Source of the DNA: Sulfurospirillum oryzae
GTDB lineage: Bacteria > Campylobacterota > Campylobacteria > Campylobacterales > Sulfurospirillaceae
Direction: 5' to 3'
DNA: 64,000 nt
Assembly: GCF_025770725.1 (NCBI RefSeq)
Contig: NZ_JANZKZ010000001.1
Coordinates: forward strand, 806,001-870,000
Both the position numbers and the translations under genes were made by a program. Numbering within the stretch: the stretch's first letter is position 1; the number at the start of each line of letters is the position of its first letter. The notes beneath the pieces are model-generated. The model saw only the letters and a program-made list of their open reading frames with translations, was not told the DNA's origin and ran no database searches. Positions 24,768 to 27,676 of this stretch are shown one piece after another.

Positions 24768-25166
24768 TTAGTACCGTGTAAATTTAACTGCTTGTGCTTT
24801 GCCCTCAATGCCACTTAAGCGATTCCATGAAGCACCAAGTTTTGTATAGCGTACATAGATGAGCGCATCAGCACCTTTTTTGAGCGCTTCTTCTTTCAGT
24901 TTGGCTTCAACGGCTTCTTGTTTTGGCTCTTCGCCCCACGGGTTGATTTTGGTCACACTTGCACTCACTTCACCAAGACTGGCATAAGGTCGATCGGTGA
25001 TGTCAAGCTCGTACATCAAGATATTATTTGGAAGTGCTATCTTTACTTCAGAAACAACCGGAGCAGGTGTAGTTGGTGCTTTTTGACTCCAAAAATCATA
25101 GTTGAAACTCATGCTACATCCTGAGAAAAAGCCTAAACACATTAGCATTGCTACCCACTGTTTCAT
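24768..25166 (-). CDS. Predicted lipoprotein, unknown function
   Basis: 132 residues. Signal peptide MKQWVAMLMCLGFFSGC ends in a lipobox (FSGC), so it should be lipidated at Cys17 and anchored in an outer or inner membrane leaflet. The mature part is a small alpha/beta domain (PNNILMYELDITDRPY ... KKGADALIYVRY) resembling heavy-metal-binding YbjQ-like or DUF4156-type modules, but I cannot assign it firmly. AAGGAG is 6 nt before ATG 25166. Confidence 0.75.
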   Translation of the reverse strand: MKQWVAMLMCLGFFSGCSMSFNYDFWSQKAPTTPAPVVSEVKIALPNNILMYELDITDRPYASLGEVSASVTKINPWGEEPKQEAVEAKLKEEALKKGADALIYVRYTKLGASWNRLSGIEGKAQAVKFTRY

Positions 25167-25229
25167 CACACACTCCTTAAAAGATAGGCAAAGTTTACCA
25201 TTTTTAGCGTTACATGTAAAATTTTGATC

Positions 25230-25240
25230 TATAATATAAT
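25230..25240 (+). promoter_or_regulatory. Probable promoter of the AmmeMemoRadiSam operon
   Basis: Two overlapping TATAAT hexamers (25230-25235 and 25235-25240) lie 18-23 bp before the first ATG, followed by AAAGGAGG (25246-25253). A palindrome copy (25210-25219) sits just upstream of the -10. Confidence 0.6.
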
Positions 25241-25257
25241 TTTACAAAGGAGGCACC

Positions 25258-25800
25258 ATGCAAAATGTGATCCTAGATATTGCTAAACAAGCTATCCATG
25301 ATAGTTTTAACCACACTTCCACAATCGATACGAAGGCACTATTGGAGTGCTATCCCGAACTCTCTAAGCCTAAAGCGACCTTTGTCACCCTTACGCTTGA
25401 TCATCAACTGCGTGGGTGTATTGGCTCGCTCATTGCGCACCGACCACTTTTAGATGACCTCATTCACAACGCCCAAGCTGCAGCTTTTGAAGACCCACGT
25501 TTTTATCCGCTGAGTCCTGAAGAGTTTTCGCGCGTACATATCGAAGTTTCACTTTTGAGTGAACCAGAAGTCGTCGTATACTCTGACATTGAAGACCTTA
25601 AAAGCAAGGTTACCGTGGGCGTTGATGGTATTATCCTCCAAAGAGGGTCTCGTAAAGCGACATTTTTACCGCAAGTTTGGGAGCAACTGCCAACATTTGA
25701 GCTTTTCTTTTCACATCTATGCCAAAAAGCAGGATTAGAGTCTGGTTGTCTAGAAAGTCATCCTGACATCTGGCACTATAGAGTTGAAAAGGTGAAATAA
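25258..25800 (+). CDS. AmmeMemoRadiSam system protein A (AMMECR1 family)
   Basis: 180-residue AMMECR1-domain protein with the invariant LRGCIGSL motif (~57-64), the family's conserved nucleophile-like cysteine loop. First gene of the three-gene AmmeMemoRadiSam set. AAAGGAGG precedes the ATG. Its stop overlaps the radical SAM ATG by one base (TAATG). The AMMECR1 domain has no established reaction in bacteria; the fixed gene trio implies it acts with the radical SAM and Memo-type proteins, perhaps in modifying a metabolite, protein or RNA. Confidence 0.93.
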   Translation: MQNVILDIAKQAIHDSFNHTSTIDTKALLECYPELSKPKATFVTLTLDHQLRGCIGSLIAHRPLLDDLIHNAQAAAFEDPRFYPLSPEEFSRVHIEVSLLSEPEVVVYSDIEDLKSKVTVGVDGIILQRGSRKATFLPQVWEQLPTFELFFSHLCQKAGLESGCLESHPDIWHYRVEKVK

Positions 25801-26789
25801 TGCACTATTTTAAGGCTGAAGGAGCACGACTTGTTTGCCTTTTATGTGCGCATTATTGCCATCTTAAAGAAGGGCAAGTGGGCATTTGTGGTGTCAACAA
25901 AAATGTTGATGGCGCCATTCAAAACCTTGTTTACGGCTATCCTGTAGCCATGCACGTTGATCCTGTGGAAAAGAAACCACTGTATCATTTTTTACCCGAT
26001 TCTAGAGCTTTTTCTCTTGGAACGATCGGGTGTAATTTTAAATGCCCTTTCTGTCAAAACTGGAGTATTTCGCAAGAAAAATCTTTACATGTAACAGAGT
26101 ATTTTGCCCCTTTGCAAATTGTTGAAATGGCACTCAAATACGAATGTGCTTCCATCGCTTACACCTACAATGAGCCCACTATTTTCTACCCCTATGCCAA
26201 AGATATTGCTCTTTTAGCCCATGAAAAAGGCATCAAAAACATCTTCGTTACCAATGGATTTGAATCTAGCGAAGTGATTGATGATATGGTAGGCATTATT
26301 GATGCTGCCAATGTTGACCTCAAATCCTTTAACCACGACTACTACAAAAAAGAGCTTGGAGGAGGGCTAGAAGCCATCTTGGAAAACCTCAAACACTTCA
26401 AGCGTAACGGCATTTGGATCGAAGTCACTACACTTATTGTTCCTACGAAAAATGACTCGGATGCTGAACTCACCTCCATCGCATCGTTTATTGCCAAAGA
26501 GCTTGGAGAGCAAACACCTTGGCACATCAGTGCCTTTCATCCTGATTATCACGAGCAGGGACTTCCAGCAACTTCTATCGAAACACTTAAACGCGCCGAA
26601 GCCATTGGACAAAGTGCTGGATTAAAACACATCTACATCGGCAATGTCGGACTTGAAAACCCAACAAGATGTGTTACATGTAACACTGTTTTGATAGAGC
26701 GCAAACGCTTTGAAGTCATAGAAAACCATTTAGTAGAAGGATGCTGCCCAAAATGCAAAACCAAACTCGCAGGAGTTTTTGATGAATAA
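25800..26789 (+). CDS. AmmeMemoRadiSam system radical SAM enzyme
   Basis: 329-residue radical SAM protein. The canonical cluster motif is CNFKCPFC (~78-85, preceded by GTIG). There are extra cysteines at the N-terminus (CLLCAHYCHLKEGQVGICG), as in PFL-activase-like relatives, and a C-terminal zinc-type motif (RCVTCNTVLIE...GCCPKCKTKL). Overlaps both neighbours, so the trio is tightly coupled. Two palindrome copies lie inside (26085 read Leu-His-Val, 26674 read Thr-Cys); the second encodes one cysteine of the C-terminal metal motif. Confidence 0.95.
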   Translation: MHYFKAEGARLVCLLCAHYCHLKEGQVGICGVNKNVDGAIQNLVYGYPVAMHVDPVEKKPLYHFLPDSRAFSLGTIGCNFKCPFCQNWSISQEKSLHVTEYFAPLQIVEMALKYECASIAYTYNEPTIFYPYAKDIALLAHEKGIKNIFVTNGFESSEVIDDMVGIIDAANVDLKSFNHDYYKKELGGGLEAILENLKHFKRNGIWIEVTTLIVPTKNDSDAELTSIASFIAKELGEQTPWHISAFHPDYHEQGLPATSIETLKRAEAIGQSAGLKHIYIGNVGLENPTRCVTCNTVLIERKRFEVIENHLVEGCCPKCKTKLAGVFDE

Positions 26790-27576
26790 ATATCGCAAGT
26801 CTGCCGTTGCTGGCATGTTTTATCCCGATAGTTGCAGTGACATCAAACACTACATCGCGCACTTTACCAAAGAGATGCCCGAGTTAACCCTTGATGTTTT
26901 ACCACGTTCCCTCATCGTACCCCATGCGGGCTATGTTTACAGTGGCTATACCGCCAATCTTGCCTTCCATTACGCCGCTTCAAAACGCCCTGACATTGAA
27001 CGGGTGGTCGTCCTTGGTCCAAGCCATCGTGTTTACGTCGCAGGCGCTTCCATCGCTCTTTTTGAGGCATACCATACGCCTTGTGGTGAGCTTGAAATCG
27101 ACTTAACGTATAGTCATGCGCTTGCGAAGAAATTTGCCTTTTTAGACTTTCTACCCAGTGCGCACGAAGAACACTCCACCGAAGTGCAAATGCCCTTCAT
27201 TTACCACTATTTCAGACATGCAAAAGTCGTTGAAATCGTCTATGGCGACATCACTCACACTGAACTTTCACAGCTCATCGACGATGTGCTTCAAGATGAA
27301 AAAACGCTTCTGGTTATCAGCACCGATCTTAGCCATTTTTACACACAAGTGCAAGCCAATAAGCTCGATAATCTCTGCATAAATGCCATCTCACACCTTG
27401 ACCTTCACGCCCTTTCTCATGGTTGTGAAGCGTGTGGAATTACAGGCGTCAAAGCAATGATACAAAGTGCGCTCAATCATAATTTCCAAGCCCATTTTTT
27501 AGACTATCGCACCAGCTTTGCACGCACAGGCGATGATAGCCGAGTCGTTGGTTACACGTCGTTTGCACTGGGATGA
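26782..27576 (+). CDS. AmmeMemoRadiSam system protein B (Memo family)
   Basis: 264 residues. Memo/LigB-like metal-binding fold with conserved positions visible: His in VPHAGYVYSG, His in GPSHRVYV, Asp and His in STDLSHFY, and Cys in GCEACGITG. ATG 26782 has AGGAG 6 nt upstream and overlaps the radical SAM stop by 8 nt; the TTG at 26779 is less likely. Relatives include human MEMO1 and extradiol dioxygenase-type enzymes. Reaction unknown. Confidence 0.93.
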   Translation: MNKYRKSAVAGMFYPDSCSDIKHYIAHFTKEMPELTLDVLPRSLIVPHAGYVYSGYTANLAFHYAASKRPDIERVVVLGPSHRVYVAGASIALFEAYHTPCGELEIDLTYSHALAKKFAFLDFLPSAHEEHSTEVQMPFIYHYFRHAKVVEIVYGDITHTELSQLIDDVLQDEKTLLVISTDLSHFYTQVQANKLDNLCINAISHLDLHALSHGCEACGITGVKAMIQSALNHNFQAHFLDYRTSFARTGDDSRVVGYTSFALG

Positions 27577-27676
27577 TATCACATCCTTTCTTCTTCACAT
27601 TTTCTCACTTTAGCAATTTAGGAAAAGAAATAAAAACCTAAAAAAAGTATGATTGTGCCAACAAAAGGATAATAAT

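Follow-up and report, generated by a model that had tools for sequence, protein, structure and literature searches.

An intact AmmeMemoRadiSam operon in Sulfurospirillum oryzae, accompanied by a second, unlinked amrS gene

Proteins of the Memo and AMMECR1 families range from archaea to humans, and in bacteria they are catalogued together with a radical SAM enzyme as the widespread AmmeMemoRadiSam system (amrA, amrB and amrS; NCBIfam TIGR04335, TIGR04336 and TIGR04337, respectively). An earlier note on the DNA studied here had stated that the chemistry of this trio is not established, and no paper establishing a chemistry or activity for it was found in the open-access literature. For human MEMO1, binding of both iron and copper has been described (PMC11081632, PMC9477392), the iron ligands being H49, H81 and C244, and the protein showed no dioxygenase activity on the substrates tried (PMC11081632). 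Archaeal AMMECR1 figures among the uncharacterised archaeal families given top priority (PMC6393860).

The window, that is, the whole stretch of 64,000 nucleotides of S. oryzae DNA that was analysed, carries three overlapping genes in one operon on the forward strand (25258–27576). The first gene, amrA (25258–25800), encodes an AMMECR1-domain protein of 180 residues (TIGR04335, 199 bits against a curated cut-off of 99; PF01871, 155 bits). It is followed by amrS (25800–26789), encoding a radical SAM enzyme of 329 residues (TIGR04337, 351 bits against 220), and by amrB (26782–27576), encoding a Memo-family protein of 264 residues when counted from its ATG (TIGR04336, 244 bits against 26). The Pfam models PF01871, PF04055 and PF01875 all score above their gathering thresholds in the trio. 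The amrA stop codon and the amrS ATG have one base in common (TAATG), and the amrB ATG gives an overlap of 8 nt with the end of amrS; a TTG at 26779 lies in the same frame as the ATG at 26782. The reading-frame coordinates and the curated family scores thus bear out the earlier note, which had described a complete AMMECR1-type, radical SAM and Memo-type trio in one operon with overlaps of 1 and 8 nt. The trio is a fully intact bacterial representative of a catalogued system and not a new kind of system. Nothing in the trio itself departs from the family; what is extra here is a second, unlinked AmrS that belongs to a separate clade.

AmrA contains an LRGCIG motif that is invariant in 37 of 37 relatives. 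It has the same domain as the archaeal AMMECR1 proteins PH0010 (1VAJ), ST0229 (1WSC) and MM0484 (1ZQ7), with E values of 5e-17 to 7e-20, but those proteins belong to TIGR00296/PRK00801, whereas AmrA is the bacterial form. In AmrS the motif that holds the SAM cluster, C78xxxC82xxC85, is intact in all 78 Campylobacterota sequences compared, and both the N-terminal cysteines (C13, C16, C20 and C30) and a C-terminal CxxC...CxxC (C291, C294, C316 and C319) are kept in 77–78 of the 78; an AmrS copy from a Segatella plasmid is without the C-terminal part. The predicted model of AmrS was too poor (pLDDT 60) and was left out of the structural comparison. By sequence, the nearest solved protein is PflA (3c8f), and AmrS shares the radical SAM core and CxxxCxxC motif of the glycyl-radical enzyme activases. 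It differs from PflA-type activases by its four-cysteine N-terminus and its C-terminal CxxC...CxxC, and its gene adjoins amrA and amrB and no gene for a glycyl radical enzyme. The scores of AmrS with the activase models lie well below the cut-offs (PFLA, 51 against 231.75 bits; PFLE_PFLC, 58.5 against 174.35 bits).

The AlphaFold2 model of AmrB (pLDDT 88.9) has the Memo fold, and structures of human MEMO1 (3BCZ, 7KQ8) are the best of its PDB matches (Foldseek E value 2e-22, TM-score 0.84). Three metal-site residues, H48, H82 and C218 (AmrB numbers are counted from the ATG at 26782), are invariant in 64 of 64 sequences and correspond to the two histidines and one cysteine of the MEMO1 site. The PDB alignment places H48 and H82 on H49 and H81 of MEMO1, and D182 and H185 correspond to D189 and H192. 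C218 we take to be the equivalent of C244; this match, like the rest of the C-terminal alignment, lies outside residues 38–215, the part over which the human MEMO1 sequence used agrees with the PDB alignment. That sequence has H, H, D, H and C at positions 49, 81, 189, 192 and 244, as published. Further conserved positions of AmrB are H128, H131, D182 and H185, together with C199 and C215; MEMO1 is without C199, C215 and H128, and in the same C-terminal alignment it has VSY in place of the VVGY motif of AmrB. The two extra cysteines are near-invariant in Campylobacterota AmrB (62 of 64 and 61 of 64), but they are absent from the Ideonella and Segatella proteins and so are no family trait, and AmrB was therefore rejected as an Fe-S protein. 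AmrB also shares the general fold of the LigB-type extradiol dioxygenases (aminophenol dioxygenase 3VSH and others; TM-scores of about 0.55–0.60), but homologues of AmrB occur in strict anaerobes and AmrB does not have the 2-His-1-Glu/Asp iron site of that family, a cysteine replacing the acidic (glutamate) ligand (cf. PMC11081632).

We surveyed 249 Campylobacterota genomes, each at least 90% complete, with amrS counted only above its cut-off; other phyla were represented by a few plasmid records. In this sample amrA is present in 71 genomes, amrB in 70, amrS in 63 and all three in 62. None of the 63 amrS genomes is without amrB (Fisher p 1e-51, shared ancestry ignored), and seven of the 249 keep amrA and amrB without amrS. 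The earlier note had called the three genes strictly coupled, and this is nearly true within Sulfurospirillum, where nine of the ten other members sampled have them together and the tenth, G123, no longer has amrS in the operon, having lost it. At the level of the phylum the description does not stand: separation of the genes is frequent in other families, amrA and amrB may remain together with AmrS elsewhere, and seven genomes have the pair without any AmrS. The trio is functionally tied, yet it is not strictly a single operon. A replacement radical SAM enzyme next to amrA and amrB in species without AmrS was ruled out at the three loci checked (L056, L057 and L061), none of which encodes a CxxxCxxC protein beside the pair.

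Natural fusions point to a physical or metabolic partnership. In two Arcobacter-like genomes (L064, L065) a single reading frame encodes both AmrS and AmrB, and AmrB and AmrA form one protein on an Ideonella plasmid, on a Segatella plasmid and in the Campylobacterota genome G009. The B-A fusions of Segatella (L117:5947-7422) and G009 (L062:4718-6166) begin with a hydrophobic stretch which, read by eye, resembles a signal peptide, hinting at an exported form. A stand-alone AMMECR1 gene (L141:7995-8543) was also seen in the genome of a huge uncultured phage (LR756501.1, 735 kb); its product shares 52% identity with the AMMECR1 portion of the fusion protein from Segatella. That phage record has no Memo gene, and nothing was found in a search of viral contigs for AmrS.

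In a tree of 75 AmrS proteins there are two clades separated by long, fully supported branches. Genes of the first (S1) nearly always adjoin amrA or amrB, and those of the second (S2) are not adjacent to them. The AmrS of the operon (25800–26789) is S1, and the same genome has a second amrS gene of type S2 (G000:C1:196597-197604), convergent with metK, a point that had escaped the earlier reading. Among the 70 genomes with amrB, 40 have S1 only, 16 have S2 only, seven have both and seven have neither; S. oryzae is thus one of just seven with both. This partial mutual exclusion (p 9e-6, shared ancestry ignored) suggests that S1 and S2 are able to replace each other. A strain of S. oryzae from which only the operon had been deleted would therefore still have the S2 gene, whose radical SAM enzyme might stand in for the lost one and so mask the effect. 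In three genomes (G013, G036 and G029; loci L086, L087 and L088) a flavin reductase gene precedes a tandem pair of S2-type genes, at a great distance from amrA and amrB. Several species of the genus also encode a distant AmrS-like radical SAM protein of about 600 residues (L053, L054 and L055; also G206, G234 and G247), which scores 114–131 bits, below the cut-off, and was not found in the S. oryzae genome.

The reading we prefer, and hold tentatively at a little under an even chance, places AmrS, AmrB and AmrA in one pathway with a radical step, a metal-dependent step and AmrA as partner or substrate binder. AmrS would cleave S-adenosylmethionine and generate a radical on the substrate; AmrB, which has the MEMO1/LigB fold and a metal site of two histidines and a cysteine, would act on that substrate in a second step, a redox reaction or bond cleavage that needs no oxygen; and AmrA would bind AmrB, the substrate, or both. 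Proteins and isoprenoids as well as nucleobases or RNA are candidate substrates. We infer the passage of a single substrate from AmrS to AmrB, the role of AmrA and the independence from oxygen, the last because trio genes are present in strict anaerobes, for example Methanocaldococcus jannaschii and Thermotoga maritima among the control genomes. Near-perfect co-occurrence, the operon, both kinds of fusion, the metal ligands and the behaviour of H128 described below all speak for one pathway, and mutual exclusion of S1 and S2 would be expected if either serves the same AmrA and AmrB. Against it, amrA and amrB persist without amrS in the seven genomes mentioned above and also in eukaryotes, so the pair must have a use of its own.

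The co-occurrence and the S-B fusions would also suit an arrangement in which AmrS acts as a maturase of AmrB, in the manner of the glycyl-radical activases, and modified AmrB is the working enzyme. AmrS is nearest to those activases (PFLE/PFLC and PflA models; PflA structure 3c8f), and S never occurs without B whereas B occurs without S. The C-terminal RVVGY of AmrB is similar to the loop of a glycyl radical enzyme. However, its glycine, the obvious candidate for the target, is conserved in six of six AmrBs from AmrS-less genomes, so that a glycyl radical at this position was rejected and no activase partner with an AmrS-dependent radical glycine is apparent; C199, C215 and C218 are likewise independent of AmrS. 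H128 alone tracks AmrS. Situated three positions ahead of the conserved H131, this residue is found in 56 of the 57 AmrBs whose genomes were not scored as AmrS-less, occurs in the Ideonella and Segatella proteins too, and is lost in five of the six AmrBs of AmrS-less genomes; because five of these six belong to one genus, the pattern may reflect a single event, which also weakens it as a point for the one-pathway reading. D241 and R243 track AmrS less well and were rejected as markers, being also lost in the AmrS-containing fusion L064. A maturase role for AmrS is unlikely.

The gene neighbourhoods vary by family outside the genus and disagree on the substrate of the proposed pathway; a single substrate does not follow from them. 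A dihydroorotase-like gene (matching model NF006268 below its cut-off) lies directly 5' of amrS (f5, f11) or amrB (G165), in the same orientation, at 16 loci, and in f9 truA neighbours amrB and a flavin reductase gene is also found. The dihydroorotase-like gene and truA, together with the place of the archaeal Memo gene in the mevalonate operon (PMC3857490), are in keeping with modification of a nucleobase, RNA or an isoprenoid, a reading that concerns the substrate and overlaps with the one-pathway reading; an analysis of the PCAD-Memo superfamily by Burroughs et al. in 2019 reportedly proposed modifications of this kind. Attempts to show mevalonate-phosphate decarboxylation by the archaeal Memo protein MJ0403 failed, however (PMC3857490), and truA is on the opposite strand and may merely share gene order with amrB. 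We regard this choice of substrate as possible but rather doubtful.

Other neighbours would suggest a role in protein repair or modification, the module acting on damaged or new proteins with the isoaspartate repair methyltransferase Pcm. In four f8 genomes the pcm gene either overlaps S2 or lies directly against it, both genes being on one strand (gaps of -9, -3, 23 and 13, in both gene orders); in three f4 genomes it lies 3' of amrB (gaps of -22, 5 and 5), and in S. oryzae it is one gene away from S2, beyond metK, which is found beside S2 at five loci. Such a role is improbable, pcm being near at just eight examined loci that represent few independent events, and other families having the dihydroorotase-like gene, truA or flavin reductase instead. 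In the Arcobacter-like relatives (f7) a DUF218 gene and zinc-type ABC transporter genes adjoin the operon, and this, like the iron and copper bound by human MEMO1, would fit a function in metal handling, with AmrB (together with AmrA) buffering or delivering iron or copper and AmrS as client or redox helper. The transporter link is confined to one family, however, and metal handling gives no account of a radical SAM enzyme nearly always kept with AmrB; we consider it quite unlikely. A long shot that joins several of these observations is an AmrA-AmrB core served by interchangeable S1 and S2 enzymes, with radical-dependent protein modification beside Pcm, in which H128 would mark the AmrS-dependent chemistry and the AmrS-less pairs of Arcobacter-like species and eukaryotes would keep a residual function. 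What the comparison of 249 genomes provides is which of the trio genes depend on which, and with it sharper tests of function: a genome with both forms of AmrS, relatives without AmrS, natural fusions, and H128 as a residue for mutation.

Upstream of amrA, a perfect TATAAT -10 box (25230–25235) and an AAGGAGG ribosome-binding site (25247–25253), both on the forward strand, are supported as parts of the operon promoter region by their near-constant position in all 11 genus members compared, which have the box and an AAGGAG-type site in 11 of 11. The promoter that the earlier note had called clear is so in this respect, but a good -35 box is not seen upstream of amrA and a generic sigma-70 scan gives no excess (8 sites against 5.9 ± 2.9 in shuffled sequences). 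A possible terminator hairpin 3' of amrB (27570–27587, forward strand) is likewise no more than chance by the scan. The lipoprotein gene on the reverse strand (24768-25169) is divergent from amrA, as had been noted; it had also been taken as probably unrelated, yet homologues lie near amrA at nine other loci of the genus, sometimes with one gene between. Among the loci fetched from outside the genus none has it adjoining the trio, and a functional link is unproven.

Just 5' of the -10 box is a copy of the palindrome TTACATGTAA (25210–25219, no strand assigned), which is genome-wide and not specific to the trio. Its abundance is a bigger surprise than the trio and separate from it. The window has 27 copies against 0.07 expected (for example at 25210, 26085 and 26674), and the 2.63 Mb genome has 1056, where the letters in reversed order occur 3 times. 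Across the genus the number ranges from 49 to 1496, and genomes of the related genus g2 have few copies (6–97). The palindrome is reminiscent of HIP1 in cyanobacteria (PMC4390886); no paper naming the sequence seen here was found. The genome also has a gene for a D12-type adenine methyltransferase (L142:1495-2472; G000:C3:196220-197194), with no restriction gene seen beside it in this short locus. Homologues of at least 62% identity are present in 13 genus members, all with at least 869 copies of the palindrome, and the eight members without one have 49–934 (p 1e-4, shared ancestry ignored). The exceptions are G239, with 934 copies and no homologue found, and g2, with homologues of 51–54% identity and few copies. 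Two copies lie inside amrS (26085–26094 and 26674–26683) and are intact in seven of seven copy-rich relatives, among which the flanks are only about 70–80% identical. In the copy-poor G146 and G182 these sites differ at several bases and the protein is changed (CVTCNT versus CAKCHT, for example), so that, judging from these alignments, it seems to be the palindrome itself that is preserved, even at a cost in codons.
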